This document shows, one piece after another, positions 10,298-55,205 of a stretch of DNA of 64,000 bases; positions within the stretch are counted from its first letter, which is position 1, and the number at the start of each line of letters is the position of its first letter. The position numbers and the translations under genes are program-made. Origin of the DNA: Streptomyces lunaelactis (GTDB lineage: Bacteria; Actinomycetota; Actinomycetes; Streptomycetales; Streptomycetaceae); NCBI RefSeq assembly GCF_003054555.1, contig NZ_CP026304.1:558001-622000 (forward strand), written 5' to 3'. The notes below the pieces were generated by a model. It did no database searches. It saw nothing but the letters and a program-made list of their open reading frames with translations, and was not told where the DNA came from.

Positions 10298-11328
10298 AGG
10301 TACTGGTGACAGGCGCCTCCGGGTTCCTCGGAAGCCACATCGTCGACGCCTGTGCGCGCGCCGGTGACGAAGTGCGGGTGCTGGTACGCAAAGACAGCGA
10401 CCTGAGCCATCTGCGCACCGTTGCAGGCATCGAGTTCGCGTACGGCGACCTGCGCGACGCCGCCTCACTACGTCGGGCCATGGACGGGATCGACGCGGTG
10501 CACCACAGCGCGGCCCGGGTCACCGACAGGGGTACCCGCGCCCAGTTCCAGGACGAGAACGTCTCGGGCACGGAGCGCCTCATGTCGGCGGCCCAGGAAG
10601 CGGGCGCACGACGCTTCGTCTTCATCAGCAGCCCCAGCGCGCTGATGGGCATCCGCGGCGGCGACCGGCTCGACATCGACGAGAGCGAGCCCTTCCCCGC
10701 ACGCCACCTCAATCTCTACTCGGAGACCAAGGCCGCCGCGGAGCGCCTGGTGCTGGCCGCGGACCGTGCGGACTTCACCACTGTCGCGCTGCGCCCGCGC
10801 GCCGTCTGGGGCCCGCGCGACCACTCCGGTTTCATGCCGCGGCTGCTCGCGAAGATGATGACGGGCAGTCTGCCCGACCTCTCCGGGGGCAGGCGCGTGT
10901 ACGCGTCGCTGTGCTACTGCGAGAACGCCGCCGATGCGTGCGTGCGGGCGGCGCGTGCCGACGGTGTCGGCGGCAGGGCGTACTTCATCGCCGACCAGCA
11001 GCCGGTGGAGATCTGGAGCACGCTCGCCGGCCTCGCCGAACGGTTCGGCGGCAGTCCTCCGACCAAGCGCGTCTCCCACAGCGTGCTGCGCGCAATCGCC
11101 TTCACGGCGGACATGGTCTGGAAACTGCCGTGGCCGGCCAAACACTCCTCGCCCCCGCTCTCCCGGTACTCGCTGGCCCTGCTGACCCGTTCGGCGACGT
11201 ACGACACCTCGGCGGCGCGACGGGATCTGACAGCGCCGCGGGTGGACCACGAAGCCGGGATGGGCCGGCTGGAGGCCTGGATCGACAGCATCGGCGGCGT
11301 CAACGAGTTCATCCGGAAGGTGCGGTAG
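10294..11328 (+). CDS. lstD: LstD-like (OleD-type) NAD(P)-dependent beta-keto acid reductase
   Basis: This 344-residue extended short-chain dehydrogenase belongs to the 3-beta-hydroxysteroid dehydrogenase group. The GASGFLGSH nucleotide loop is at residues 7-15, serines are at 112-115 (SSPS) and the active-site YSETK has Y142 and K146. The family role is reduction of the 2-alkyl-3-keto acid from LstA/LstB to the 3-hydroxy acid that LstC cyclises. The ATG overlaps the lstC stop by four bases (ATGA), indicating translational coupling. A helical C-terminal part is present, as in OleD. Confidence 0.88.
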   Translation: MKVLVTGASGFLGSHIVDACARAGDEVRVLVRKDSDLSHLRTVAGIEFAYGDLRDAASLRRAMDGIDAVHHSAARVTDRGTRAQFQDENVSGTERLMSAAQEAGARRFVFISSPSALMGIRGGDRLDIDESEPFPARHLNLYSETKAAAERLVLAADRADFTTVALRPRAVWGPRDHSGFMPRLLAKMMTGSLPDLSGGRRVYASLCYCENAADACVRAARADGVGGRAYFIADQQPVEIWSTLAGLAERFGGSPPTKRVSHSVLRAIAFTADMVWKLPWPAKHSSPPLSRYSLALLTRSATYDTSAARRDLTAPRVDHEAGMGRLEAWIDSIGGVNEFIRKVR

Positions 11329-44211: not shown

Positions 44212-47200
44212 GTGGACAGCATCCCGCAGCGTGAAACGTTGTCCCGGTTCGCGAGCCTGCACCTGCCGCTGAAACCGTCGGGGCCCTCCGGGGGGCCGGG
44301 GTACCTGACCTCCGTGCACCGGCTGATGGCCGTGTACGTCCTCTGCGTGATTCCCCCCGCCGTCATCTACCTCACCGTGCCGTCCTGGCACACCGTCTCC
44401 TGGGCCGTGATCGGGCTCGGCGGAGTCGCCGCGGTTCTCCTCGGGGTCCGCATACACCGCCCGGCCCGGCGCTGGCCCTGGCTGCTGCTCGCCGCCGCGA
44501 TCCTCACCTTCACCGCCGGGGACACCACCTACAACATCCTCGAATCGGCCTTCAGCCAGGAAAACCCGTTCCCCTCCCTGGCAGACGTCTTCCACCTGGC
44601 CACCTATCCCCTCTTCGCGGCCGGGATCCTCGGCTTCATCCGCTACCGCTCCGAAGCCCGCGACCTGGCGAGCCTCCTCGACGCCCTGCTCCTCACCTGC
44701 GGCCTCGCCCTGCTCTCCTGGGTGCACCTGATCAACCCGCTGACGCAGTCCGAAGGTCTGACCTGGGTGGAGAAGGCGATCTCCATGGCCTATCCGCTGG
44801 GTGACGTCCTGATCCTGGCCATGCTCGTCCGGCTGCTCACACTCGGCACGATCGGCATCCTGGTGTCCGACGTGCTCTACGGACTCCTCCACCTCAACGG
44901 CACCTGGCAGGTCGGCACGTACATGGACCTGGGCTGGGTGGTCTTCTTCACCGCCTGGGGCCTCGCCGCACTGCACCCGTCGATGGTGCGGCTCACGGAG
45001 CGAACACGCCAGCAGCCTCCCGGCATTGCCCAACGCAGACTCATCGTCCTCGTCGGCGCCTCGCTCGTCGCGCCGGCCATGCTGCTGTCGCAGTCCCTCA
45101 ACGGCAACGCCCAGGACATCGGGATCACCGCGGTGTTCTCCGCGGTCATGTTCCTGCTGGTGCTGGCCCGGCTGTGGGGTCTGGTGGACGAACACCGCAA
45201 TGCCGTGACACGCGAGAGAAGCCTGCGGGTGGCCGCCGCGTCGCTCGTGGCCGCGGTCAACCACGAGGAAGTCGCCAGCTCCGTACGGGCGGCTACAGCC
45301 ACCCTCTTCGACCCGCCCGCACACCACGAGGCCGTGCTCCTGGTCGTCGACGCGAGGCAGTCCCTGCACCCCGTAAGCACCCCCGGACAGGACTGGCACT
45401 GGCAGCTCGGCGCAGGCACACCGGAGAGCGGCGTGCCGGAACTGCTCTCCAGCGGTACCCGGCTGGTCAGCGTCGACGACCTCGGCTCAGGGGTCGCCGA
45501 CGCCCTGTACCCGCTGCCCAGCGCCCTGGTGTGTCCCCTCGTCCTCGAGGCGCCGCACTCGTTGAAACCTCTCATCGGCGCACTGCTGCTGGCGGGCCCC
45601 GAGAAGGAACTGGCGGGCCTGAAGGGCTCCATCGAGTCGCTCGCCTCCCAGACCGCGCTCGCGCTGGAGCGCGTCGGACTCAGCGAGGAGATCAACCGCC
45701 AAAGAAGCGAGGCCTACTTCCGCACGCTCGTGCACAACACGTCGGACGTGATCCTCATCCTGGACGACGACAATACGGTCCGCTACGCGAGCCCTTCCGC
45801 GGACGGCATGTTCGGCGGAACGCTGCTGAGCGGCACACCGGTCACCGGCCTCGTCGGAGCACAGGACCGCGATCGAGCACTGCGCACCATCTCACGGGCA
45901 CGGGCCGAGGACACCCCCGACATCCACGACAACTGGCGGGTGGCCGGCCGGGGGGCAGGCAGTCTCGAAGTGGAGGTCCGGTGCAGAAATCTCCGCCACG
46001 AACAGACGGTGCAGGGGCTCGTCCTGACCCTCCGTGATGTGACCGCGCAACGCCAACTGGAGCGCGAGCTCACCCATCGGGCCTTCCACGATTCGCTGAC
46101 CGGACTGCCCAACCGCGTGCTTCTGCTGGAGCGCATCGAACGCGCCCTGCTGCGCGGGCGTCGTGACTCCACCCTCACCTGTGTGCTCTTCGTCGACCTC
46201 GACGACTTCAAGATCGTCAACGACATGATGGGGCATTCGGTCGGTGACGAACTCCTCGTCGCCGTCGCACGACGGCTCACCGGTGCGCTGCGGCTGAGCG
46301 ACACAGCGGCCCGCCTGGGTGGTGACGAGTTCGCAGTCCTGATGGAGGGCGCAAAGGAGCCGGAAGACGCGGAGACACTCGCGGCACAGGTCGTCCAGGC
46401 TCTCGGCCGGCCCTACCGGCTCGACAGTGGTTCGACAAGCATCTCCGCCTGTGTCGGGGTCGCCACCGCACGGGACAGCGACGAGGCCGAGGAACTGCTC
46501 GGCCACGCCGACCTGGCTCTGTACGCCGCGAAGATCGCGGGCAAACGACAGTGGCGGCCCTTCCGGCCCGACCTGCACGCCGGAATGGTCGCGCGCCACG
46601 AGCTGCAGGCCAGCCTCGAGAGCGCCATCAACGAGGAGGCCTTCGCCCTCCGCTACCAGCCGATCGTGGAGATCGTCGACGGTGGAGTCGGTGGTGCCGT
46701 CGCCGGATTCGAGGCGCTGATCCGCTGGCCGCACCGCCGGCGCGGCTTCGTGCCGCCCGACCAGTTCATCTCCCTCGCCGAGGAGACCGGGCACATCGGG
46801 CCGCTCGGCGCCTGGGTGCTCCAGCACGCCGCGACCGAGATCGCCGGCTGGCAGCGCGCCCGGCCCCGGACGAATCCGCTGTACCTCAATGTCAATGTGT
46901 CGGCCCGTCAGTTCGTCGACCCCGGCTTCGTGGACGAGGTGCGCAAAGTCCTCGACACCTCCGGTCTCGCCCCCGGCTCACTCGTGCTGGAGCTCACCGA
47001 ATCGGTTCTGATCCGCCGCGACGAGCAGATCCGTACCGCCATGAGGACGCTGAAGGACCTCGGAGTGTCCATCGCCATCGACGACTTCGGCACCGGGTTC
47101 TCCTCGCTCAGCTACCTGCGGGAGTTCCCCATCGACGTGCTCAAGGTCGACAAGTCGTTCATCGACGACATCGTCACCGACGGTCAGCAGGTGGCCCTTG

Positions 47201-48702
47201 TCGAGGGGATCGTACGCATCGCAGACGTCCTCGGACTGCAGGTCATCGCCGAAGGCATCGAGAACGAGGGGCAGCGCGATCTGCTCGCCGCCATGGGCTG
47301 CCGGTTCGGGCAGGGCTTCCTCTTCGCGCGGCCGATGACGGCCGCCGAGGCGCAGCGGTTCCTCGTCGCCTGTCACGAATGGCAGTCCTCGCCCGTGGCG
47401 AAGCGGCACGACAGCAGTCGGCCCCCGTTCTCAAGAGGCCTCCGCCAGGCGCAGCGCCGGAGCGACCTGGAGCGACTGCAGAAGACGAGCCGGATGTGCG
47501 ACGCCGTCATCGACGAAGTGGACGGCCGGCGCATCCGCAGCGGCGACCAGTGGCTCATCGATTTCGCCTCGTGCAACTACCTGGGCCTCGACCTCGACCC
47601 GGAGATCATGGACGCCATCGGACCACAGGTCCGCCGCTGGGGCACCCACCCCAGCTGGTCCCGGCTCATCGGCAATCCCCGCCTCTACCCGGAGATCGAG
47701 GAGCGGCTCACCGATCTGCTCGGTGCTCCGGACTCTCTTCTGCTGCCCACCATCACCTTGATCCACTCCTCCGTGATCCCGTTGCTCGCCGGCGGCGGGC
47801 AGATCTTCGTCGAGGCGCGCTCCCACCGCACGGTGTACGACGGATGCGTCGTGGCCCGCGGACAGGGCGCGAGCGTCTCGCGCTTCCACGCCGAACAGCC
47901 CGAGGAACTCGCCCACCTGCTCGACTCCGCCCCGCCGGGCGCCTCCCGGCTGGTGTGCCTGGACGGTGTGAACAGCATGACCGGAAACCTCCCCGACCTG
48001 CGGGAGCTGGCCCACATCTGCCGGGCGAGGGACGCACTGCTCTACGTGGACGACGCGCACGGGTTCGGGGTCATCGGTGAACGCAGCACCGCCGAGTCCT
48101 CCCCGTACGGGATGCGCGGCAATGGCATCGTTCGCCACCTCGACGAGTCCTACGAGGGAATCGTGCTGGTCGCCGGATTCTCCCAGGCGTACTCGTCGCT
48201 GCTGGCCTTCCTCACCGCGCCGCCCGACATCAAGGCACACCTCAAGATCGCGGCGGCCCCGTATCTGTACTCCGGGCCCTCCCCCACGGCATCGCTCGCG
48301 ACCGCACTCGCGGGTCTGGCCGTCAACGACCGCCGCGGCGACGCCATCCGCGCAGACCTGCACCGCAAGACAGCCCAGGTTCTGGAGCATGTACGCGGCC
48401 TGGGCATCGCCACGCCGAACACCGATGGGCTGCCCATCATCGAGATTCCGCTCGCCGAGAGCTCGGACCTCGACGCGGTCGGCGAATTCCTGTGGAACGA
48501 GGGCATCTACGTCACGCTCGCCGCCTACCCCCTGGTGCCGCGCGACCAGGTCGGGTTCCGTATCCAGGTCACCGCCCGCAACACCGACGAGGAGATCGAA
48601 CAGCTCAACGCGACCATCACCGGCCTCGCCGAGCGATTCTCCCTGAAACAGAACGCGCAGGGGCCGGGGGCACCGCCCGCACTGGGCGGGCGGCCGTCGT
48701 AG
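44212..48702 (+). CDS. membrane GAF-PAS-GGDEF-EAL protein fused to an alpha-oxoamine-synthase-like PLP domain
   Basis: This is a 1496-residue uninterrupted frame. Residues 35-320 hold about eight membrane segments. A GAF-like region (about 350-490) and a PAS domain (505-615) follow. The GGDEF domain has an intact GGDEF motif at 703-707. The EAL domain (about 800-1050) has E834-A-L, LNVNVSARQF, LELTES, AIDDFGTGFSSLSYL, VDKSF and AEGIE, so the phosphodiesterase residues are present. After a linker, residues 1085-1480 form an aminotransferase fold of the KBL/AONS/serine-palmitoyltransferase group: FASCNYLGLD, HPSWSRLIGNPRLYPEIEE and DDAHGFG with D1280 and H1283. The position of the PLP lysine (SKAF-type motif) reads FSQAYSS with Q1325. 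c-di-GMP turnover is likely; the PLP domain may be inactive or a sensor. Confidence 0.88.
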   Translation: MDSIPQRETLSRFASLHLPLKPSGPSGGPGYLTSVHRLMAVYVLCVIPPAVIYLTVPSWHTVSWAVIGLGGVAAVLLGVRIHRPARRWPWLLLAAAILTFTAGDTTYNILESAFSQENPFPSLADVFHLATYPLFAAGILGFIRYRSEARDLASLLDALLLTCGLALLSWVHLINPLTQSEGLTWVEKAISMAYPLGDVLILAMLVRLLTLGTIGILVSDVLYGLLHLNGTWQVGTYMDLGWVVFFTAWGLAALHPSMVRLTERTRQQPPGIAQRRLIVLVGASLVAPAMLLSQSLNGNAQDIGITAVFSAVMFLLVLARLWGLVDEHRNAVTRERSLRVAAASLVAAVNHEEVASSVRAATATLFDPPAHHEAVLLVVDARQSLHPVSTPGQDWHWQLGAGTPESGVPELLSSGTRLVSVDDLGSGVADALYPLPSALVCPLVLEAPHSLKPLIGALLLAGPEKELAGLKGSIESLASQTALALERVGLSEEINRQRSEAYFRTLVHNTSDVILILDDDNTVRYASPSADGMFGGTLLSGTPVTGLVGAQDRDRALRTISRARAEDTPDIHDNWRVAGRGAGSLEVEVRCRNLRHEQTVQGLVLTLRDVTAQRQLERELTHRAFHDSLTGLPNRVLLLERIERALLRGRRDSTLTCVLFVDLDDFKIVNDMMGHSVGDELLVAVARRLTGALRLSDTAARLGGDEFAVLMEGAKEPEDAETLAAQVVQALGRPYRLDSGSTSISACVGVATARDSDEAEELLGHADLALYAAKIAGKRQWRPFRPDLHAGMVARHELQASLESAINEEAFALRYQPIVEIVDGGVGGAVAGFEALIRWPHRRRGFVPPDQFISLAEETGHIGPLGAWVLQHAATEIAGWQRARPRTNPLYLNVNVSARQFVDPGFVDEVRKVLDTSGLAPGSLVLELTESVLIRRDEQIRTAMRTLKDLGVSIAIDDFGTGFSSLSYLREFPIDVLKVDKSFIDDIVTDGQQVALVEGIVRIADVLGLQVIAEGIENEGQRDLLAAMGCRFGQGFLFARPMTAAEAQRFLVACHEWQSSPVAKRHDSSRPPFSRGLRQAQRRSDLERLQKTSRMCDAVIDEVDGRRIRSGDQWLIDFASCNYLGLDLDPEIMDAIGPQVRRWGTHPSWSRLIGNPRLYPEIEERLTDLLGAPDSLLLPTITLIHSSVIPLLAGGGQIFVEARSHRTVYDGCVVARGQGASVSRFHAEQPEELAHLLDSAPPGASRLVCLDGVNSMTGNLPDLRELAHICRARDALLYVDDAHGFGVIGERSTAESSPYGMRGNGIVRHLDESYEGIVLVAGFSQAYSSLLAFLTAPPDIKAHLKIAAAPYLYSGPSPTASLATALAGLAVNDRRGDAIRADLHRKTAQVLEHVRGLGIATPNTDGLPIIEIPLAESSDLDAVGEFLWNEGIYVTLAAYPLVPRDQVGFRIQVTARNTDEEIEQLNATITGLAERFSLKQNAQGPGAPPALGGRPS

Positions 48703-48784: not shown

Positions 48785-49885
48785 TCATGCCAACAGCTCC
48801 CGGTACAGGTTGGTGTAGTGCGCCCTGAACGGCTCGGGACCGAAGCGCTCCTCCACTGTGGCCCTGCCCCGTTTGGCGAGGATCTCCCACCACTGCGGCC
48901 GGTCGAGAAGCTGCCGGAGCAGGTGCCCGGTGCGCCGGAAGTCCCCGATGGGAGCTCGCAGCACGGTGTCCCCGAGTGCGGCGAACTGGGCCTGGTCGCT
49001 CACAATGACCGGGCGCCCGGTGGCCAGCGATTGAAGAACCGTGAGCGGGACGTCTGCCCTGACGTCGAGCAGTTGTGGGACGAAGAGCAGCACATCGGAT
49101 TCGGCCAGCAGTGCGCTCATGTCCTCGACGTAACCTCGCACGTCCACGTCGCACAGCCCCTCCCGCTCCGCGTGCGCGCGCAGCCCGTCCTCGAGTGCGC
49201 GCAGGTTCTGGCGGGGCCTGCCGCGCATGGCCAGCACCAGGCGGAAGCGCGCCCCCGCACGCGCGGCAACCGCTGCGGCAGCGATGGCCTCGGACGCGCC
49301 ACCCCCTGGGTCGTGGTGGGCGGTGACCAGCACCATCGGTATCTCTCCGACCGGGCGCGGCCGCATCGGCCACTGGTCGAGCCTGACCAGAGGCGGGATG
49401 ACCAGGACTTGGCCGAACCCCGCGGCGCTCAGCTCCTTGGCGGTCGACGCCGAGAGCGCCACCGTGCGGCCCAGCGGGCGGGCCCGCCGCAACAGGCTCG
49501 GATCCCTGACACCGGGGACGGTGTGCAGGACCGGCCGCCGGCCCACCAGCCTTGGCCAGAGCCGGGAGAAGGCCGGATATCCGTCGGCGATCGTCATCAC
49601 GGCGTGCACGAGGTCGACCCGGTGGGCCAGCACCGCACTGGCAGTGGCCACTTGGAGCCGCTGCTGGACGTGGGGGATACCGTCCAAGGAGACGACGGGA
49701 ACGGGACGGCCCCTGGCGACCGGGGGTGGCCCACCCCGGCTGGGCCACCGTCTGAACCAGGTGAACTCCACGTCCGGAATCGCGTACGCGACCGCCGCGG
49801 CCAGCTGAATGTCCGCTCCTTGCTGCCCGTCCACGGGGCCGCTGGTGAGGAGAAGTACGCGCGGCGGGTGCCCACTAGTCGCCAT
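48785..49885 (-). CDS. GT4 family glycosyltransferase
   Basis: This 366-residue GT-B glycosyltransferase has an N-terminal Rossmann half (RVLLLTSGPVDGQQGADIQL) and a C-terminal nucleotide-sugar half with DVDVRGYVEDMSALLAESDV, then VPLTVLQSLATGRPVIVSD around 290-310, the usual donor-binding Glu region being replaced by PLTVLQ. The acceptor is unknown. It lies downstream of the PIG-L deacetylase on the same strand and converges on the large fusion gene. Confidence 0.85.
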   Translation of the reverse strand: MATSGHPPRVLLLTSGPVDGQQGADIQLAAAVAYAIPDVEFTWFRRWPSRGGPPPVARGRPVPVVSLDGIPHVQQRLQVATASAVLAHRVDLVHAVMTIADGYPAFSRLWPRLVGRRPVLHTVPGVRDPSLLRRARPLGRTVALSASTAKELSAAGFGQVLVIPPLVRLDQWPMRPRPVGEIPMVLVTAHHDPGGGASEAIAAAAVAARAGARFRLVLAMRGRPRQNLRALEDGLRAHAEREGLCDVDVRGYVEDMSALLAESDVLLFVPQLLDVRADVPLTVLQSLATGRPVIVSDQAQFAALGDTVLRAPIGDFRRTGHLLRQLLDRPQWWEILAKRGRATVEERFGPEPFRAHYTNLYRELLA

Positions 49886-49975
49886 GGCCGGGTCCGGTCT
49901 GCGCAGAGGGGGCCGCGGCGCTCGGCAGCGGCCGGCGGATGCTGCGTGCGGCCGCCGCCACCCGGGTTGCTGTCG

Positions 49976-50821
49976 TCACGGCCATGGCGGGCCTCCCCGC
50001 GGTGGCCTGACATCGGCACGGGCCACGAGCGCCGGCCGGCCGGGCAGGAGATAGACCTCGGGCACGAGGGGAATGCGGCCGTCCGGGAAGAGCAGCGGGG
50101 CCTGCGTGCGGTACCCGTGGATCAGGGCAGCCTTGTCGGCGATGTCGCTGTGCCATGTCTCCGTGACCAGCGCATTGCGCCGCGAGAATCCGGCGTCGAG
50201 GGAATGGCGCTGATTGTACGGGAAGTCGCTGTAGTAACCGAAGCCGCGGTTGCTGAGCTCCGCGGCCGTGCGGACCAGCAGATGGTCGACGTGTCCGCCC
50301 ACGGCGAGCGGCGCGAGCAACAGCCGCGGCCCTGGCGGCACAAGGTCGTCCAGGGCGGCCGCGATGTGCGCCAGTGCGGCGCTGTCGTAACGGGAGATCC
50401 GGCCCGAGGCGATGTGGAGGCGGTACGTCGGGTAGACGTACGCCGCCTCGGGCAGCACGCTGTGCGCCCGCCGGGAACCGTCCGGCATGCGCCCGGGCTT
50501 CCGGCGGAACAGCCCCTCCGGCAGTCCGAGATGGCGCCAGACGATGCCCATCCCTTCGAGGACCTCCCGGTCCTCGGCCCGCCTGGAGGCGTACAGCTCC
50601 TCCGCGTCCTTCACCCCGGCCAGCCGCAGTGAGCGGCGGGCCGAGAGGGTGTACGGCCGGGGGCCCGCCTCGGTGAACACGGTCGCGACGGTCATGGACA
50701 CCCGGGAGCGTGCGTGTGTCAGCAGGGCGCCGCAGGACAGCACGGCGTCGTCGAGATGCGGCGACAGCACGAGCAGAGGGACTCCGTCCCTGATCGCGGC
50801 GGTCAGTTGATCGGCGGACAT
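49976..50821 (-). CDS. PIG-L family deacetylase
   Basis: This 281-residue zinc-dependent N-deacetylase of the MshB/LmbE group has the metal motif SPHLDDAVLSCG at about 19-30, a second ligand region GGHVDHLLV near 185, and REVLEGMGIVWRHLGLPEGL. It removes acetyl groups from GlcNAc-type residues of lipids or small glycosides. ATG 50821 follows GGGAGGAGG. The gene overlaps the upstream glycosyltransferase fragment by 19 bases and sits among glycosyltransferases, suggesting a GlcNAc intermediate made and then deacetylated. Confidence 0.86.
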   Translation of the reverse strand: MSADQLTAAIRDGVPLLVLSPHLDDAVLSCGALLTHARSRVSMTVATVFTEAGPRPYTLSARRSLRLAGVKDAEELYASRRAEDREVLEGMGIVWRHLGLPEGLFRRKPGRMPDGSRRAHSVLPEAAYVYPTYRLHIASGRISRYDSAALAHIAAALDDLVPPGPRLLLAPLAVGGHVDHLLVRTAAELSNRGFGYYSDFPYNQRHSLDAGFSRRNALVTETWHSDIADKAALIHGYRTQAPLLFPDGRIPLVPEVYLLPGRPALVARADVRPPRGGPPWP

Positions 50822-51066
50822 GACGCGGATGCCTCCTCCCTCGGATGGCGTCCCCGGTAGGCGGACGAGTCGACCGTGAGATCGCTGGGGCGGCGGCGAG
50901 AACGGCGACGACGGCGGATGCGCCGCACCTCTTCGACGACGACCGCGGCCGGCCGCCCGGCGATCTCGTAGCAGTACGCTTCGGCACCGCCGGCCTGCGG
51001 ATGCGAGGGGTCGCGCCAGTTGGGGAACAGGACATCTGCTCCGGCGAGTTGGTCGAGTGCGGTCAT
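50803..51066 (-). pseudogene. N-terminal fragment of a GT4 glycosyltransferase
   Basis: ATG 51066 starts a frame whose first 36 residues are the typical beginning of a GT4 enzyme (ADVLFPNWRDPSHPQAGGAE, then AYCYEIA). From about residue 37 it continues as an Arg-rich sequence without family features (VVVEEVRRIRRRRRSRR) and stops at 50803. A normal GT4 has about 370 residues, so most of the gene was deleted. It lies five bases after the GT2 gene and overlaps the PIG-L start, so it may now act only as a coupling leader. Confidence 0.6.
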
Positions 51067-51071
51067 GGCAG

Positions 51072-51881
51072 TCACCGCGAGAGGGCGATACGGAGGAGGT
51101 CGGCCATGGATCGCAGACCGTCCGTGCGGGCCGAGAAGGTCGACCCCGGCACGTCGGACCAGGCGACCGGTACCTCGATGATGGCCCGCCCCTCCCGCGA
51201 GAGACGGGCGAGGAGCTCGACGTCGAAGGCGAAACCGTCGATGCGGCAGCTGCTGACGATCGCACGGACGAGCGGGCCGTCGAAGAACTTGAATCCGCAT
51301 TGCGTATCGGCGATGTCCGGCAAGGTCAGTTGCGCCGGCCGCCGGAACATCCACCCGCCGCCCCTGCGCAGGGCCGACTGCTCGATCTCGTAATGCGCAC
51401 CGGGAGCACGCCGGGAGGCGATGACGGCGCCGTACGCCTCGCTCAGCAGCGCCATGACCATGTCGAGCGTGCCGATGGGGGTTGCGTTGTCGGCGTCGGC
51501 GAAGCCGACGAAGCGGGCGGCGGAGGTCGCGATCCCGCGACGTACCGCGGCCCCCCTTCCGTGGCTGCTGCAGCCGATCACGTAAGTCGAGACCGGGGCG
51601 TCGCCGAAGGCCCCCAGCGCTTCGAGTGTGCAGTCCGCGCTGTCGTTGTCGACCACGACGACGGCCGACGTCCACGGCCGACCCGAGAGGTAGTCGATGG
51701 TGCATGCGATCGTTCCCGGGAGGCGGCGCTCCTCGTTGAATGCCGGAACAATCAACTCGAGGTCCACCGGCGGGCGGATGAGCGAGGCAGGGATCTCCTC
51801 GCCGGGACCGCCGGCGATCCTTGGAAGGTGTGGCGCGTGAGGAGTGCCCCAGCGGGGGCGGGCAGGCAGCACGGACACCAT
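51072..51881 (-). CDS. GT2 family glycosyltransferase (dolichyl/polyprenyl-phosphate sugar synthase-like)
   Basis: This 269-residue GT-A glycosyltransferase has LELIVPAFNEERRLPGTIA at about 40-58, VVVDNDSADCT, FADADNATP with the metal-binding D-x-D, and ADTQCGFKFFDGPLVRAI. These resemble dolichyl-phosphate glucose or mannose synthases, which load sugars onto polyprenyl phosphate. No C-terminal membrane segments are seen. ATG 51881 follows GGAGG; the frame extends 18 codons upstream without similarity. It is probably the first gene of the GT2, GT4-fragment, PIG-L, GT4 transcript. Confidence 0.86.
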   Translation of the reverse strand: MVSVLPARPRWGTPHAPHLPRIAGGPGEEIPASLIRPPVDLELIVPAFNEERRLPGTIACTIDYLSGRPWTSAVVVVDNDSADCTLEALGAFGDAPVSTYVIGCSSHGRGAAVRRGIATSAARFVGFADADNATPIGTLDMVMALLSEAYGAVIASRRAPGAHYEIEQSALRRGGGWMFRRPAQLTLPDIADTQCGFKFFDGPLVRAIVSSCRIDGFAFDVELLARLSREGRAIIEVPVAWSDVPGSTFSARTDGLRSMADLLRIALSR

Positions 51882-52340
51882 CAGGAGTCGCCTCCTTGGA
51901 TCATGCACCCGCGCGACCGTGGCAGGGCACACCACGGACGGGCCGCTGTGACGTCCGGAGTCAGACTCCGGTGCGGCCCGTCGGGGCTATGGGAATGGGC
52001 GGAACTGCCGTCCGAATCGTTTGTACGCCGGCTGCCGGTGCCGGGCGAGGAAGCCGCCCGGGCCCGCCTGCGCCGGGGGGCGGCACAGGGCCTGCGCACC
52101 ACGGCACGGGGCACGGCGCTGGAGATTGCGAGACGGTCGGACGCGCGGCGGGAGGGATGGGCACCTCGCCGGTCGGGCGCTCCGAGGGAGCAGTGCCGCG
52201 AACCTGCCGCAGGCCAGTCGCTCACCCGCCGCAGCGGGTGAGAAACGGTGGGCGCCGGAGACCGGCTTACCTGGAGGGAGGACACGAGGGCCTCTTCCGG
52301 ACGACTGGTACCTGCATGGCCATGAATGCCTAAGTTTACA
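51882..52340. other. long leader or non-coding stretch
   Basis: About 460 GC-rich bases without a supported gene lie between the two GT2 genes. Open frames exist on both strands, but none has start signals plus a recognisable product. If the promoter at 52341-52369 is real, this is a long 5-prime leader of the downstream transcript. Confidence 0.4.
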
Positions 52341-52369
52341 GCATTAGCACATGATTTATACATGGTCAA
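52341..52369 (-). promoter_or_regulatory. candidate promoter in an AT-rich patch
   Basis: On the minus strand TTGACC (52364-52369) and TAATGC (52341-52346) are 17 bases apart. The patch 52320-52380 is strikingly AT-rich for this genome. Transcription would run toward the glycosyltransferase/PIG-L genes, starting about 450 bases before the first one. Confidence 0.45.
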
Positions 52370-52377
52370 TCTGGGAT

Positions 52378-53247
52378 CTAACTGTTCGTCGCTTTCGATT
52401 CCGGTGTGGACCGGGCAGTGTGCCGGGCAGAAACGCGACGGAACCGAGGTGCCGGGACGAGTCGCACCAGCGCGGTACGCGGGCGCTCGTCGAGCAGGGT
52501 CCTCAGGATCCGCGCACCGTCGTGAACCGTGCGCAGATTCGACGCACCGTCCCGGCGCGGCAACTCCAGACTGGGAACCTCGGCGATTCGGAGCCCGTAG
52601 TGCAGGGCATGGGCCACGATCTCGGCACCCAGCTCCACCCCGTCGCCCCGGAGATCCAGCAGCCTCAGGAACTCCCGCCGGAACGCGCAGAAGCCGTACC
52701 AGACATCGGTCAGCTGCTGCCCGTACAACCGCCGGGCCACGCGCAGCAGGACGCGCTGCCCCACCCGGCGCAGCAAGGGGTAGCCGACGCTGCCGCCGCC
52801 GGCGATGAAGCGCGAGCCCTTGACGAAGTCGTATCCGTTCTCGAGGTAGTGCAGGTAGCGGGGGATCTCCCCCGGCGACATGCTGCCGTTGGAGTCGATC
52901 AGTACGACATGTTCGCCGCACGCGGCCAGCAGGCCCGCGTGGAACACGTTCCCCGCACCCTCGGTCCGCTGCTCGACCGTGCGCAGACAGGGCCCGCCAC
53001 GAGAAACCGGGCCGTCCGGAGAGTGCCCCCGCACGTCGCCGACGAGGATCACTTCCTCCACACAGTCCGGCACTTGCCCCAGAAGCCACGTGATGTCGCA
53101 CGTACCGTCCAGGACGGGGATCACCAGACTCACAGCGGGTCGGCGCGGAGCCGTCGCAGGTGCAGGTTCCGGTCGGGGGTCCGTGGCCCGGCGCAGCGGG
53201 TGAGCGATCAATGTCGTCGCCTCCGGCGATGCCAGATATACCTTCAT
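52378..53247 (-). CDS. GT2 family glycosyltransferase
   Basis: This 289-residue GT-A enzyme has AVSLVIPVLDGTCDITWLLG at about 38-57, VLIDSNGSMSPGEIPRYL with a D-x-N variant of the D-x-D motif, and VKGSRFIAGGGSVGYPLLRR, then DVWYGFCAFRREFLRLL. The last two blocks are typical of polyprenyl-phosphate sugar synthases. The acceptor is unknown. It is oriented like the 51072 GT2 gene but separated by a 496-base gap with its own promoter-like signal. It diverges from the GH15 gene. Confidence 0.83.
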   Translation of the reverse strand: MKVYLASPEATTLIAHPLRRATDPRPEPAPATAPRRPAVSLVIPVLDGTCDITWLLGQVPDCVEEVILVGDVRGHSPDGPVSRGGPCLRTVEQRTEGAGNVFHAGLLAACGEHVVLIDSNGSMSPGEIPRYLHYLENGYDFVKGSRFIAGGGSVGYPLLRRVGQRVLLRVARRLYGQQLTDVWYGFCAFRREFLRLLDLRGDGVELGAEIVAHALHYGLRIAEVPSLELPRRDGASNLRTVHDGARILRTLLDERPRTALVRLVPAPRFRRVSARHTARSTPESKATNS

Positions 53248-53393
53248 GATGCGGCGCTCAACGGCACAGGGTCAAGCCCGTTCCACGTTCCCCCGCATTT
53301 TCCGGCCTGCCGCCCGCTGGAAGCATATGGCGAACTCCGGGAATCTATTCTCCGGGCGCGCCTTTCGCGCTCTACAGGAATACAATTCCCTTC

Positions 53394-55205
53394 ATGGCGG
53401 GGCGAATCGAAGACTATGCCATCATCGGAGACCTTGAGGCGGCGGCTCTCGTCGGCCGGGACGGGGCCATCGACTGGTTGTGCATGCCGCGCTTCGATTC
53501 CCCCGCCTGTTTCGCTTCCCTCCTCGGCAGCGAGGACAACGGTCAGTGGTGGATCTCGCCGGCCGACCGGCGTCCCTGCAACCGGCGCTCCTACCGCGGT
53601 GACACGCTGGTGCTGGAATCGGTGTGGGAGACCGTCGGCGGCGCTGTGAAGCTCATCGACTTCATGCCGCCCCGCGGGGAGGTCCCGCAGATCGTACGGA
53701 TCGTGGAAGGTCTGTCCGGACAGGTCCACATGCGGGGCGAGTTGAAGTTGCGCTTCGACAACGGCCGTATCGTGCCGTGGACCCGAGCCATGGACAGCAG
53801 CACGGTGTCGGCGGTCGCGGGACCCGACTCCGCCTTCCTCCGCTGCGACCGCGGCGTGAGGATGTCCGACAGCAAGACCTGCACGACCCTCGACTTCTCG
53901 GTCTCCGCGGGACAGCGCATCGCCTTCGTCCTCGGCTGGAGCCCCTCGCATGTGGCTGCCATGCCGGACGTCGACACCGAAGCAGCAATGGAGAAAACGC
54001 TGGAATTCTGGCGGAGATGGACGGCGAAGTGCCGGTACGAAGGGCCTTGGCGGGATGTCGTCATGCGTTCCCTGATCACCCTCAAGGCACTGACCTACGC
54101 GCCGACGGGCGGAATTGTCGCCGCGGCCACCACCTCACTGCCGGAATACATTGGCGGAGACCGCAATTGGGACTACCGGTTCTGCTGGCTGCGCGATTCC
54201 ACGTTCACACTCTCCTGCCTGTTGCGCAGCGGATATCGCGAGGAGGCGGTGGCCTGGAAGGACTGGCTGGTGCGAGCCGTGGCAGGTGAACCCTCCGATC
54301 TCCAGCCGCTGTACGGCGTGGCCGGACAGCGCCGACTGGTCGAGACACCCGCCTGGTGGCTGCCCGGCTACGAGGGCTCCCAGCCGGTCCGCTTCGGCAA
54401 CGCGGCCGTCGACCAGCTGCAACTCGACGTCTACGGCGAAGTCCTGAACACCGTGTACTCGGCCGTGCGGGCCGGGGTTCCGATCGACCGCCATGTGTGG
54501 AGTCTCATGGCCTCGTTCATGCAGTACCTCGAAAAGCACTGGGAGGAACCGGACGCGGGATTCTGGGAAGTCAGAGGCCCCCGGCGGCACTTCGTCCACT
54601 CCAAGATCATGTCCTGGGTCGCCGCCGACCGCGCACTGCGGCTGGCCCGGGTGGCGGGACAGCGGAACTCCACAGAGCGCTGGCGGGCGATGCGACGGGA
54701 GATCCGCGACGAGGTGTGCCGCCAAGGCTGGGACGACGAGCTGGGATACTTCGTCCAGTCCTACGGGTCCCGCCGCATCGACGCCTCGGCACTGCTGCTC
54801 CCGAGGCTCGGCTTCCTCCCCCCGGACGACCGCCGGGTGCTGGGCACAGTGGAGGCTGTACGCAGGCTCGACCACCACGGATTCCTGCGGCGCTACTCCG
54901 TGGACGACGGCGGCCAGGACCAGGTGGACGGCATGAGCTGCGGGGAAGGAACCTTCCTCGCCTGCTCGTTGTGGTACGCCGACGCGCTCGCCATGACCGG
55001 CCGTCAGGACGAGGCCCGCGCGGTCTTCGAACGCGTGCTGGCCGTACGCAACGACGTCGGCCTGCTCGCGGAGGAGTGGGACCCGGTCGCACGCCGCCAG
55101 CTCGGCAATACTCCGCAGGCCTTCAGCCATGTGGCCCTGGTGAACACGGCGTTCGCCCTGCACGGCACACGCAACCAACCGCGCCGATCGAGCGGCACAC
55201 GTTAG
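53394..55205 (+). CDS. GH15 glucoamylase/trehalase-like glycoside hydrolase
   Basis: This 603-residue (alpha/alpha)6-barrel hydrolase has an N-terminal beta-sandwich (IEDYAIIGDLEAAALVGRDG, then AIDWLCMPRFDSP) and the catalytic barrel from about 225 (GGDRNWDYRFCWLRDSTFTL). General-acid glutamate lies in HWEEPDAGFWEVR at 382-394 and the base in GLLAEEWDP near 560. Actinobacterial proteins of this build include cytosolic GH15 trehalases as well as glucoamylases. No signal peptide is present, so the substrate is intracellular. Trehalose is attractive given the LpqY-SugABC-like importer 10 kb away. Confidence 0.88.
   Translation: MAGRIEDYAIIGDLEAAALVGRDGAIDWLCMPRFDSPACFASLLGSEDNGQWWISPADRRPCNRRSYRGDTLVLESVWETVGGAVKLIDFMPPRGEVPQIVRIVEGLSGQVHMRGELKLRFDNGRIVPWTRAMDSSTVSAVAGPDSAFLRCDRGVRMSDSKTCTTLDFSVSAGQRIAFVLGWSPSHVAAMPDVDTEAAMEKTLEFWRRWTAKCRYEGPWRDVVMRSLITLKALTYAPTGGIVAAATTSLPEYIGGDRNWDYRFCWLRDSTFTLSCLLRSGYREEAVAWKDWLVRAVAGEPSDLQPLYGVAGQRRLVETPAWWLPGYEGSQPVRFGNAAVDQLQLDVYGEVLNTVYSAVRAGVPIDRHVWSLMASFMQYLEKHWEEPDAGFWEVRGPRRHFVHSKIMSWVAADRALRLARVAGQRNSTERWRAMRREIRDEVCRQGWDDELGYFVQSYGSRRIDASALLLPRLGFLPPDDRRVLGTVEAVRRLDHHGFLRRYSVDDGGQDQVDGMSCGEGTFLACSLWYADALAMTGRQDEARAVFERVLAVRNDVGLLAEEWDPVARRQLGNTPQAFSHVALVNTAFALHGTRNQPRRSSGTR

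Follow-up and report, generated by a model that had tools for sequence, protein, structure and literature searches.

A c-di-GMP enzyme continuous with an alpha-oxoamine-synthase fold

The open reading frame described here begins with a GTG codon, runs for 1496 codons with zero internal stops, and encodes in one polypeptide a membrane module, a possible GAF region, a PAS domain, GGDEF and EAL domains and a C-terminal alpha-oxoamine-synthase (AOS) domain (Table 1). It belongs to Streptomyces lunaelactis and lies in a stretch of 64,000 nucleotides that was analysed as a whole and is called the window. The initial annotation had claimed that a single 1496-codon frame joins a c-di-GMP enzyme to an AOS fold, and this is confirmed by the ORF, the Pfam scan, the motifs and a structural model; the coding sequence also starts in the same region in the window and in its relatives P0001 and P0002. 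The membrane segments that had been claimed correspond to six hydrophobic peaks within the first 330 residues, and the PAS region to a PAS_4 domain. The claimed GAF domain, on the other hand, is plausible by position only, because a Pfam scan of the fusion protein, residues 331-490 included, gave no GAF match.

Table 1. Features of the fusion gene and its 3' flank in the window (aa, residues of the fusion protein; positions, nucleotides of the window)
Feature	Position	Strand	Basis
CDS, 1496 aa: membrane module-(GAF-like)-PAS-GGDEF-EAL-AOS	44212..48702	+	ORF, Pfam, start region
Membrane sensor module, aa 36-330	44317..45201	+	related to N-terminal part of receptors adjoining stand-alone AOS genes
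39-bp in-frame deletion: loss of 13 residues that P0001, P0002 and P0044 have between two modelled helices	44830..44850	+	alignment, model
Possible GAF region, aa 331-490	45202..45681	+	position; Pfam scan without match
PAS_4 domain, aa 508-615	45733..46056	+	Pfam
GGDEF domain, aa 624-779; GGDEF motif 703-707, RxxD I-site 694-697	46081..46548	+	Pfam, motifs
EAL domain, aa 801-1041, catalytic motifs in place	46612..47334	+	Pfam, motifs
Variable linker at fusion joint, aa 1046-1085	47347..47466	+	mean identity 27.5% to 57 relatives
AOS (AONS/SPT/KBL-like) domain, aa 1086-1475	47467..48636	+	Pfam, sequence and structure matches
DDAH motif, aa 1280-1283	48049..48060	+	alignment
Codon 1325, Gln at position of PLP Schiff-base lysine; FSQAY (relatives FSKAY/FSKAF)	48184..48186	+	alignments
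82-bp gap to glycosyltransferase gene; site of a methyltransferase-like gene in Lys-bearing L140 and L147	48703..48784		locus comparison

Both c-di-GMP domains had been described as intact, and the catalytic motifs and the I-site are all found: the GGDEF motif and the RxxD I-site (R694) are kept, and the EAL domain carries EALIRW, NVNVSA, ELTES, DDFGTG, KVDKSF, AEGIE and GQGF. Judged by these motifs the window protein would class as a GGDEF-EAL c-di-GMP enzyme, and its c-di-GMP domains look intact. Its GGDEF domain is identical to that of P0001 across 161 residues. Among 48 fused loci (see below) GGDEF and RxxD are present in every one, and the complete set of motif patterns is present in 37; the EALxRW pattern is missed in 11, three of which also miss DDFG[TA]G.

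The C-terminal part, in which Pfam calls Aminotran_1_2 at residues 1151-1466, was modelled over 416 residues with high confidence (mean pLDDT 90.8, pTM 0.90) and adopts the AOS fold, with ThaOS, AONS, SPT and KBL as the best Foldseek matches (TM 0.81-0.84, E about 1e-29). The closest solved sequences also belong to the SPT/AONS/KBL group, led by a bacterial serine palmitoyltransferase (E 2.4e-31); CqsA is far behind (E 1.5e-4), and assignment as a CqsA orthologue was rejected on these values. The domain shares with the AONS/SPT/KBL enzymes (TIGR00858, NF047599, PRK06939) the fold, the DDAH motif and the best HMM and structure matches, but it scores far under the cut-offs of the NCBIfam AOS models (BioF 170.6 vs 426, among the best 25 of 41 families), so that it looks like a subfamily of its own. 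The DDAH motif, which we take to supply the PLP-site Asp and His as in AOS enzymes, is kept in 119 of 121 aligned proteins, the window protein among them.

The fusion and its separate-gene relatives

A search with the AOS region returned 645 proteins at E <= 1e-3, and the best 120 of these are 1050-1577 aa long. GGDEF, EAL and Aminotran_1_2 are called together in 119 of these best 120 listed matches (table read by eye), the exception being P0088, which has no GGDEF call. Because the same fusion recurs throughout the best 120 listed matches, it is no assembly accident, and an artefact or missed stop at 47370-47470 is ruled out, the joined form being the rule among close relatives. The initial annotation had set both such an error and relatives with two separate genes against its reading; there is no sign of the former, whereas the latter do exist, as described below. 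Within Streptomyces the AOS domain (E <= 1e-60) is present in 31 of 199 genomes of one sample and in 69 of 392 of another.

Scanning named genomes yielded 348 confirmed relatives; 80 of these loci were kept, and 20 more were chosen by hand. The resulting 100 loci, in which genes outside the window were called with a codon-usage gene caller rather than taken from annotation, comprise 48 fusions, 50 separate AOS genes and two of another kind (L090 and L091). In the separate loci the AOS gene is accompanied by a relative of the receptor part, immediately upstream on the same strand in 42/50, adjoining on either side on the same strand in 45/50, and within seven genes in 49/50; short gaps or overlaps between the two genes are frequent. 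Separate genes are found, among other hosts, in Dactylosporangium, Paractinoplanes, Catenulispora and MAGs of Acidimicrobiia. Fusions were found only in Streptomycetaceae, where eight separate loci occur too. A quick tree was built from 80 of the 114 distinct AOS domains of these loci, with 15 outgroup rows picked from separate loci without the methyltransferase-like gene described below; on it the fused or separate state switches six times, which is consistent with a fusion that arose in Streptomycetaceae and was later split.

The same association is seen across the phylum. Of 296 Actinomycetota genomes, 44 have the module (E <= 1e-25), 25 the AOS domain (E <= 1e-90) and 24 both, so that the module is present in 24/25 AOS-positive genomes vs 20/271 others. 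Where no fusion exists, the module lies on the same contig as AOS in 22 of 23 AOS-positive genomes, 16 of them within 500 bp, with a median gap between the matches of about 200 bp and a maximum of 4464 bp; it is upstream of AOS in some of the sampled genomes and downstream in others. The module of one relative was modelled with about 10 long helices, and a PDB fold search with this model gave no match at E <= 0.001. The S. lunaelactis genome itself holds a paralogue (L002, G000:C1:7665910-7668999) that is 53% identical over residues 36-1051 and has a related module and no AOS match; it is possibly an orphan receptor.

The two loci of another kind concern the output. In genus g117 an AMP-ligase/ACP/AOS protein, with about 40% identity in its AOS part, adjoins a module-bearing receptor. 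At L090:2987-9806 the neighbour of the ligase-ACP-AOS gene is a hybrid histidine kinase (HK-REC-REC-Hpt) that carries the module, and at L091:8730-15283, in a sister species, a long AOS-ended protein adjoins a GGDEF-EAL protein whose module is 72% identical to that of L090. The scan for AMP-ligase and ACP domains covered L090 alone, and both loci stand outside the 48 fusions and the 114 domains, while their host genomes, G386 and G438, are among the 25 AOS-positive genomes of the phylum sample. A synthase-receptor pair would be expected to look like this, with synthase and module constant and the output exchangeable. In addition, since this relative carries a ligase and an ACP, an acyl thioester is suggested as the AOS substrate.

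Further partner genes follow the AOS domain. A methyltransferase-like (MT) gene lies within two genes downstream in 44/48 fused and 8/50 separate loci, an MFS exporter-like gene (PF05977/PF07690) in 4/48 and 29/50, a SnoaL-like gene in 0/48 and 20/50, and neither MT nor MFS in 4/48 and 14/50. Three genomes are present twice among the 48 fused loci (L075/L146, L076/L143, L078/L138), and L154, at a contig edge with an MT match of 122 aa, is counted as MT there and omitted from the comparison of 5 and 50 loci below; in L085 the MT and MFS matches fall within a single ORF. All eight separate loci with MT belong to Streptomycetaceae, while the 42 outside this family include 28 with MFS and none with MT. 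An MT orthologue (at least 53% identity) is found in 28/31 AOS-positive Streptomyces genomes vs 1/168 others (Fisher p about 1e-29, ancestry ignored), and the sole AOS-negative genome that has it, G124, retains an AOS remnant. The family label of this gene is tentative: PF01234 (NNMT/PNMT/TEMT) scores 27.0 bits on one copy and 18.9 on another against a cut-off of 25, with no stretch passing alone, and in the PDB an indolethylamine N-methyltransferase (E 0.0018) ranks second to an expansin-like protein (E 0.0016).

Two observations on the surroundings may be added. In Paractinoplanes a luciferase-like monooxygenase gene replaces the MFS gene behind AOS (L104:10331-11152, by Pfam in L104, with a like-clustered gene in L112). 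Downstream of the window fusion, 48785-55205 holds a glycosyltransferase gene, a PIG-L deacetylase gene, two GT2-family genes and a GH15 gene, several of which are found close to the fusion in further Streptomyces loci too.

Losses at the S. lunaelactis locus

The initial annotation had described a full AONS/SPT-type PLP fold. The fold is kept in the window copy while the catalytic lysine is gone, so that the description holds for the fold and fails for the active site. Position 1325 is Lys in 118 of 121 aligned proteins and Gln in the window, P0001 (AOS 98.5% identical to that of the window) and P0007. Among 114 distinct full-length AOS domains of the fetched loci, with identical domains merged, 111 have Lys; the other three are those of the window (Q), Streptomyces sp. 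TRM49041 (Q), which by strain name is the source of P0007, and S. cupreus (R). Elsewhere the domain is well preserved: it keeps 134 of the 135 conserved columns of the fetched loci, the sole deviation being at 1325, and in the protein-based set of conserved columns it deviates at 1204 (A to S) and 1325. Most relatives are probably working synthases. Loss of the PLP lysine from an AOS fold is familiar from SPTLC1/LCB1, the eukaryotic SPT subunit that lacks the lysine yet keeps its fold and serves structure or regulation; the window genome differs in that no close active partner AOS was found in it, its other AOS-like loci being only 24-32% identical.

One explanation of these observations is that the PLP-fold domain is a sensor rather than a synthase, which binds PLP, an amino acid or acyl-CoA and controls the GGDEF and EAL domains allosterically, so that loss of the lysine would be tolerated because catalysis is not needed. 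There are regulators of the MocR/GabR type in which a PLP-fold domain has a sensory role; the window protein differs from them in that its Pfam scan found no GntR-type HTH before the PLP domain. In keeping with a sensor, the window AOS domain is as conserved as that of its Lys-bearing sister P0002 despite Gln1325 (mean identity to 57 relatives 78.1% vs 77.1%), the lysine changes three times on the quick tree, and the domain is fixed in cis. However, the lysine is retained in nearly all of the proteins and distinct domains counted above, and the exporter-like genes that often adjoin stand-alone AOS genes, like the MT genes of the Streptomyces versions, suit a producer. We consider a sensor in place of a synthase unlikely.

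The MT gene is missing as well. In L140 and L147 the order is AOS fusion, MT, glycosyltransferase, and in the window it is AOS fusion, 82 bp, glycosyltransferase; MT was not found in the window genome by a single-genome search run without a positive control, with a query that matches 51 of 199 genomes. Broken MT remnants are present in TRM49041 and S. noursei, with a weak C-terminal trace (E 2e-4) in S. cupreus. Degraded MT genes stand immediately after the fusion gene in L139 and L149, at about 10300-10770. The lysine is lost in 3/5 fused loci without MT and kept in 2/5, and it is lost in 0/50 fused and 0/9 separate loci with MT; the quick tree requires three lysine changes and five MT losses. 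Lysine loss and MT loss are associated by Fisher's test (p 3.8e-4, ancestry ignored), but a phylogeny-aware sign test has too few pairs (p 0.5), and on this result we reject the claim that the statistics prove lysine loss to follow MT loss. The counts hint that MT was lost first and the lysine afterwards, the phylogeny-aware test being underpowered.

The third change lies in the membrane module. Of 28 aligned modules 27 extend over the site (L137 begins after it); among these the 13-residue gap is unique to the window, and the other 26 keep the residues in some form. In the modelled relative L140 the deleted residues lie between helices 148-173 and 180-204, and the L140 DNA has a direct repeat at this place. 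The membrane topology of the window copy may be disturbed. Given Gln1325, the loss of MT and the deletion of 13 module residues, the window copy is probably no working synthase, and its AOS domain is probably a pseudoenzyme, which either persists as a folded module or is decaying along with the system.

That the whole locus is decaying in this genome, with an AOS domain without remaining function and a broken sensor, is somewhat less probable than the signalling model set out below, with which it is compatible. Besides the three changes just described, broken remnants of the module exist in other genomes (G197, G124, G009), and in P0001, a 98% relative, a conserved Trp of the protein-based set is altered as well. 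Yet all 1496 codons are open, the GGDEF domain is unchanged from that of P0001, and the AOS domain deviates from the conserved columns of the fetched loci at a single place.

CdgF and a candidate signalling system

The initial annotation knew of no described GGDEF-EAL protein with such a C-terminus. S. venezuelae CdgF (vnz_02140/sven_0451), however, is very probably the same AOS-bearing fusion, even though its published layout, 10TM-PAS-PAC-GGDEF-EAL in the available text of PMC6205966, lacks the C-terminal domain. A fused ORF at 0.487 Mb of genome G015 is 99.2% identical to P0044, which is labelled 'Streptomyces venezuelae', and the eight GGDEF loci of G015 follow the rank order of cdgF, cdgA, cdgD, cdgB, cdgE, rmdB, cdgC and rmdA by published gene number; the match rests on this rank order and the species label, without a locus tag or a domain check of the other seven loci. 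CdgF is thus very probably the orthologue of the window protein, from which it differs in that the G015 copy keeps both the lysine and, downstream, a full-length MT match of 241 aa, and the window copy neither. The words 'aminotransferase' and 'PLP' do not occur in the available text of PMC6205966, nor 'aminotransferase' and 'pyridoxal' in that of PMC13232838, and among open-licence titles and opening parts of abstracts nothing was found that combines GGDEF or diguanylate with AOS. According to the accessible parts of PMC6205966, CdgF, detected via a C-terminal FLAG, is confined to the membrane fraction and had no part in the control of development under the test conditions, and what the sensory domains of Streptomyces c-di-GMP enzymes perceive is unknown; PMC13232838, in its available text, describes the function of CdgF as still to be defined. 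The fusion is conserved yet functionally undescribed, the window copy being a probable pseudoenzyme version of it.

At family level a functional tie between c-di-GMP turnover and the AOS enzyme, as the initial annotation had proposed, is well supported by the conserved fusion and by the conserved adjacency where the genes are separate. Its further suggestion that an amino-ketone is made is plausible for the Lys-bearing relatives and does not apply to the window copy, with Gln1325 and MT lost. The fusion, its conservation, the gene neighbours, the shared receptor module, the GGDEF and EAL motifs and the AOS fold are directly supported. The candidate model, to which we would give a slightly less than even chance (roughly 45%), is that in this family the synthesis of a small amino-ketone is linked to a membrane receptor controlling c-di-GMP, as an amino-ketone signal synthase tethered to its own c-di-GMP receptor, with the sender arm lost in the window copy. 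The family would then consist of an AOS enzyme bound, as neighbour gene or fusion, to a membrane receptor that has many helices and most often acts through GGDEF-EAL. In the working version, probably represented by CdgF, AOS would condense an acyl thioester and an amino acid to an amino-ketone, which would be modified by the MT enzyme in Streptomyces or exported by an MFS protein in many others; the membrane module would sense the product, and sensing would alter GGDEF/EAL activity. That the product is the receptor's ligand, that it is methylated and exported, and in which direction c-di-GMP responds are steps that we infer.

The arrangement recalls the alpha-hydroxyketone systems CqsA/CqsS and LqsA/LqsS, in which an AOS-family synthase is paired with a multi-TM receptor with histidine-kinase output. 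The likeness lies in a synthase gene beside a membrane receptor, as in the separate loci here. The differences from CqsA/CqsS are that the AOS domain here is nearer to SPT/AONS/KBL, that the output is usually GGDEF-EAL, and that in Streptomyces synthase and receptor are joined in one polypeptide; no match of the module to CqsS emerged, the PDB fold search having given nothing with confidence. A precedent for the proposed logic exists in a chimera in which CqsS, joined to adenylate cyclase, drives the cyclase when stimulated by CAI-1 (PMC4821796, as far as its available text goes). In a review, PMC8846402, the accessible portion gives AI-2 and BDSF as quorum signals that have direct receptors within c-di-GMP networks; it contains no match for CAI-1, CqsA or Streptomyces.

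Several observations speak against the signalling model. Both MT and MFS are missing from 14 of the 50 separate loci, and MT is missing from all 42 that lie outside Streptomycetaceae; the module is also present in 20 sampled genomes that give no strong AOS match and in the AOS-less paralogue; the solved sequences closest to AOS are of the SPT/AONS/KBL group rather than CqsA, and the module is without a confident PDB match; and the lysine is kept in two of the five fused loci that lack MT, with a sign test that gives p 0.5. A tight AOS-receptor gene pair could also serve a lipid instead of a signal. AOS would then make a sphingoid-like or other envelope lipid base, in a process tuned by the c-di-GMP enzyme, a view that agrees with bacterial SPTs as the best solved-sequence matches and with the membrane location of CdgF (PMC6205966). 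However, the close neighbours that are annotated, in a minority of clusters, are MFS, SnoaL-like, luciferase-like and MT genes, with no lipid genes among them, and the patchy spread over the larger Streptomyces sample would be odd for an envelope lipid. We regard a lipid enzyme under c-di-GMP control as quite improbable.

If the signalling model is followed to its full extent, the family would be an unrecognised actinobacterial system in which a synthase dedicated to a small amino-ketone sits beside or is joined to its own membrane receptor, with one polypeptide in Streptomyces that makes a signal, senses it and converts it to c-di-GMP; some strains, the one in the window included, would have lost the sender and could only listen, and the output would be exchangeable between GGDEF-EAL and histidine kinase. 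In this full form the claim is doubtful, and we hold it less firmly than the model itself. Nevertheless, the C-terminal synthase and its gene partners provide a concrete candidate for the signal chemistry of a Streptomyces c-di-GMP enzyme and, if the model is true, would add amino-ketone communication to the Actinomycetota.
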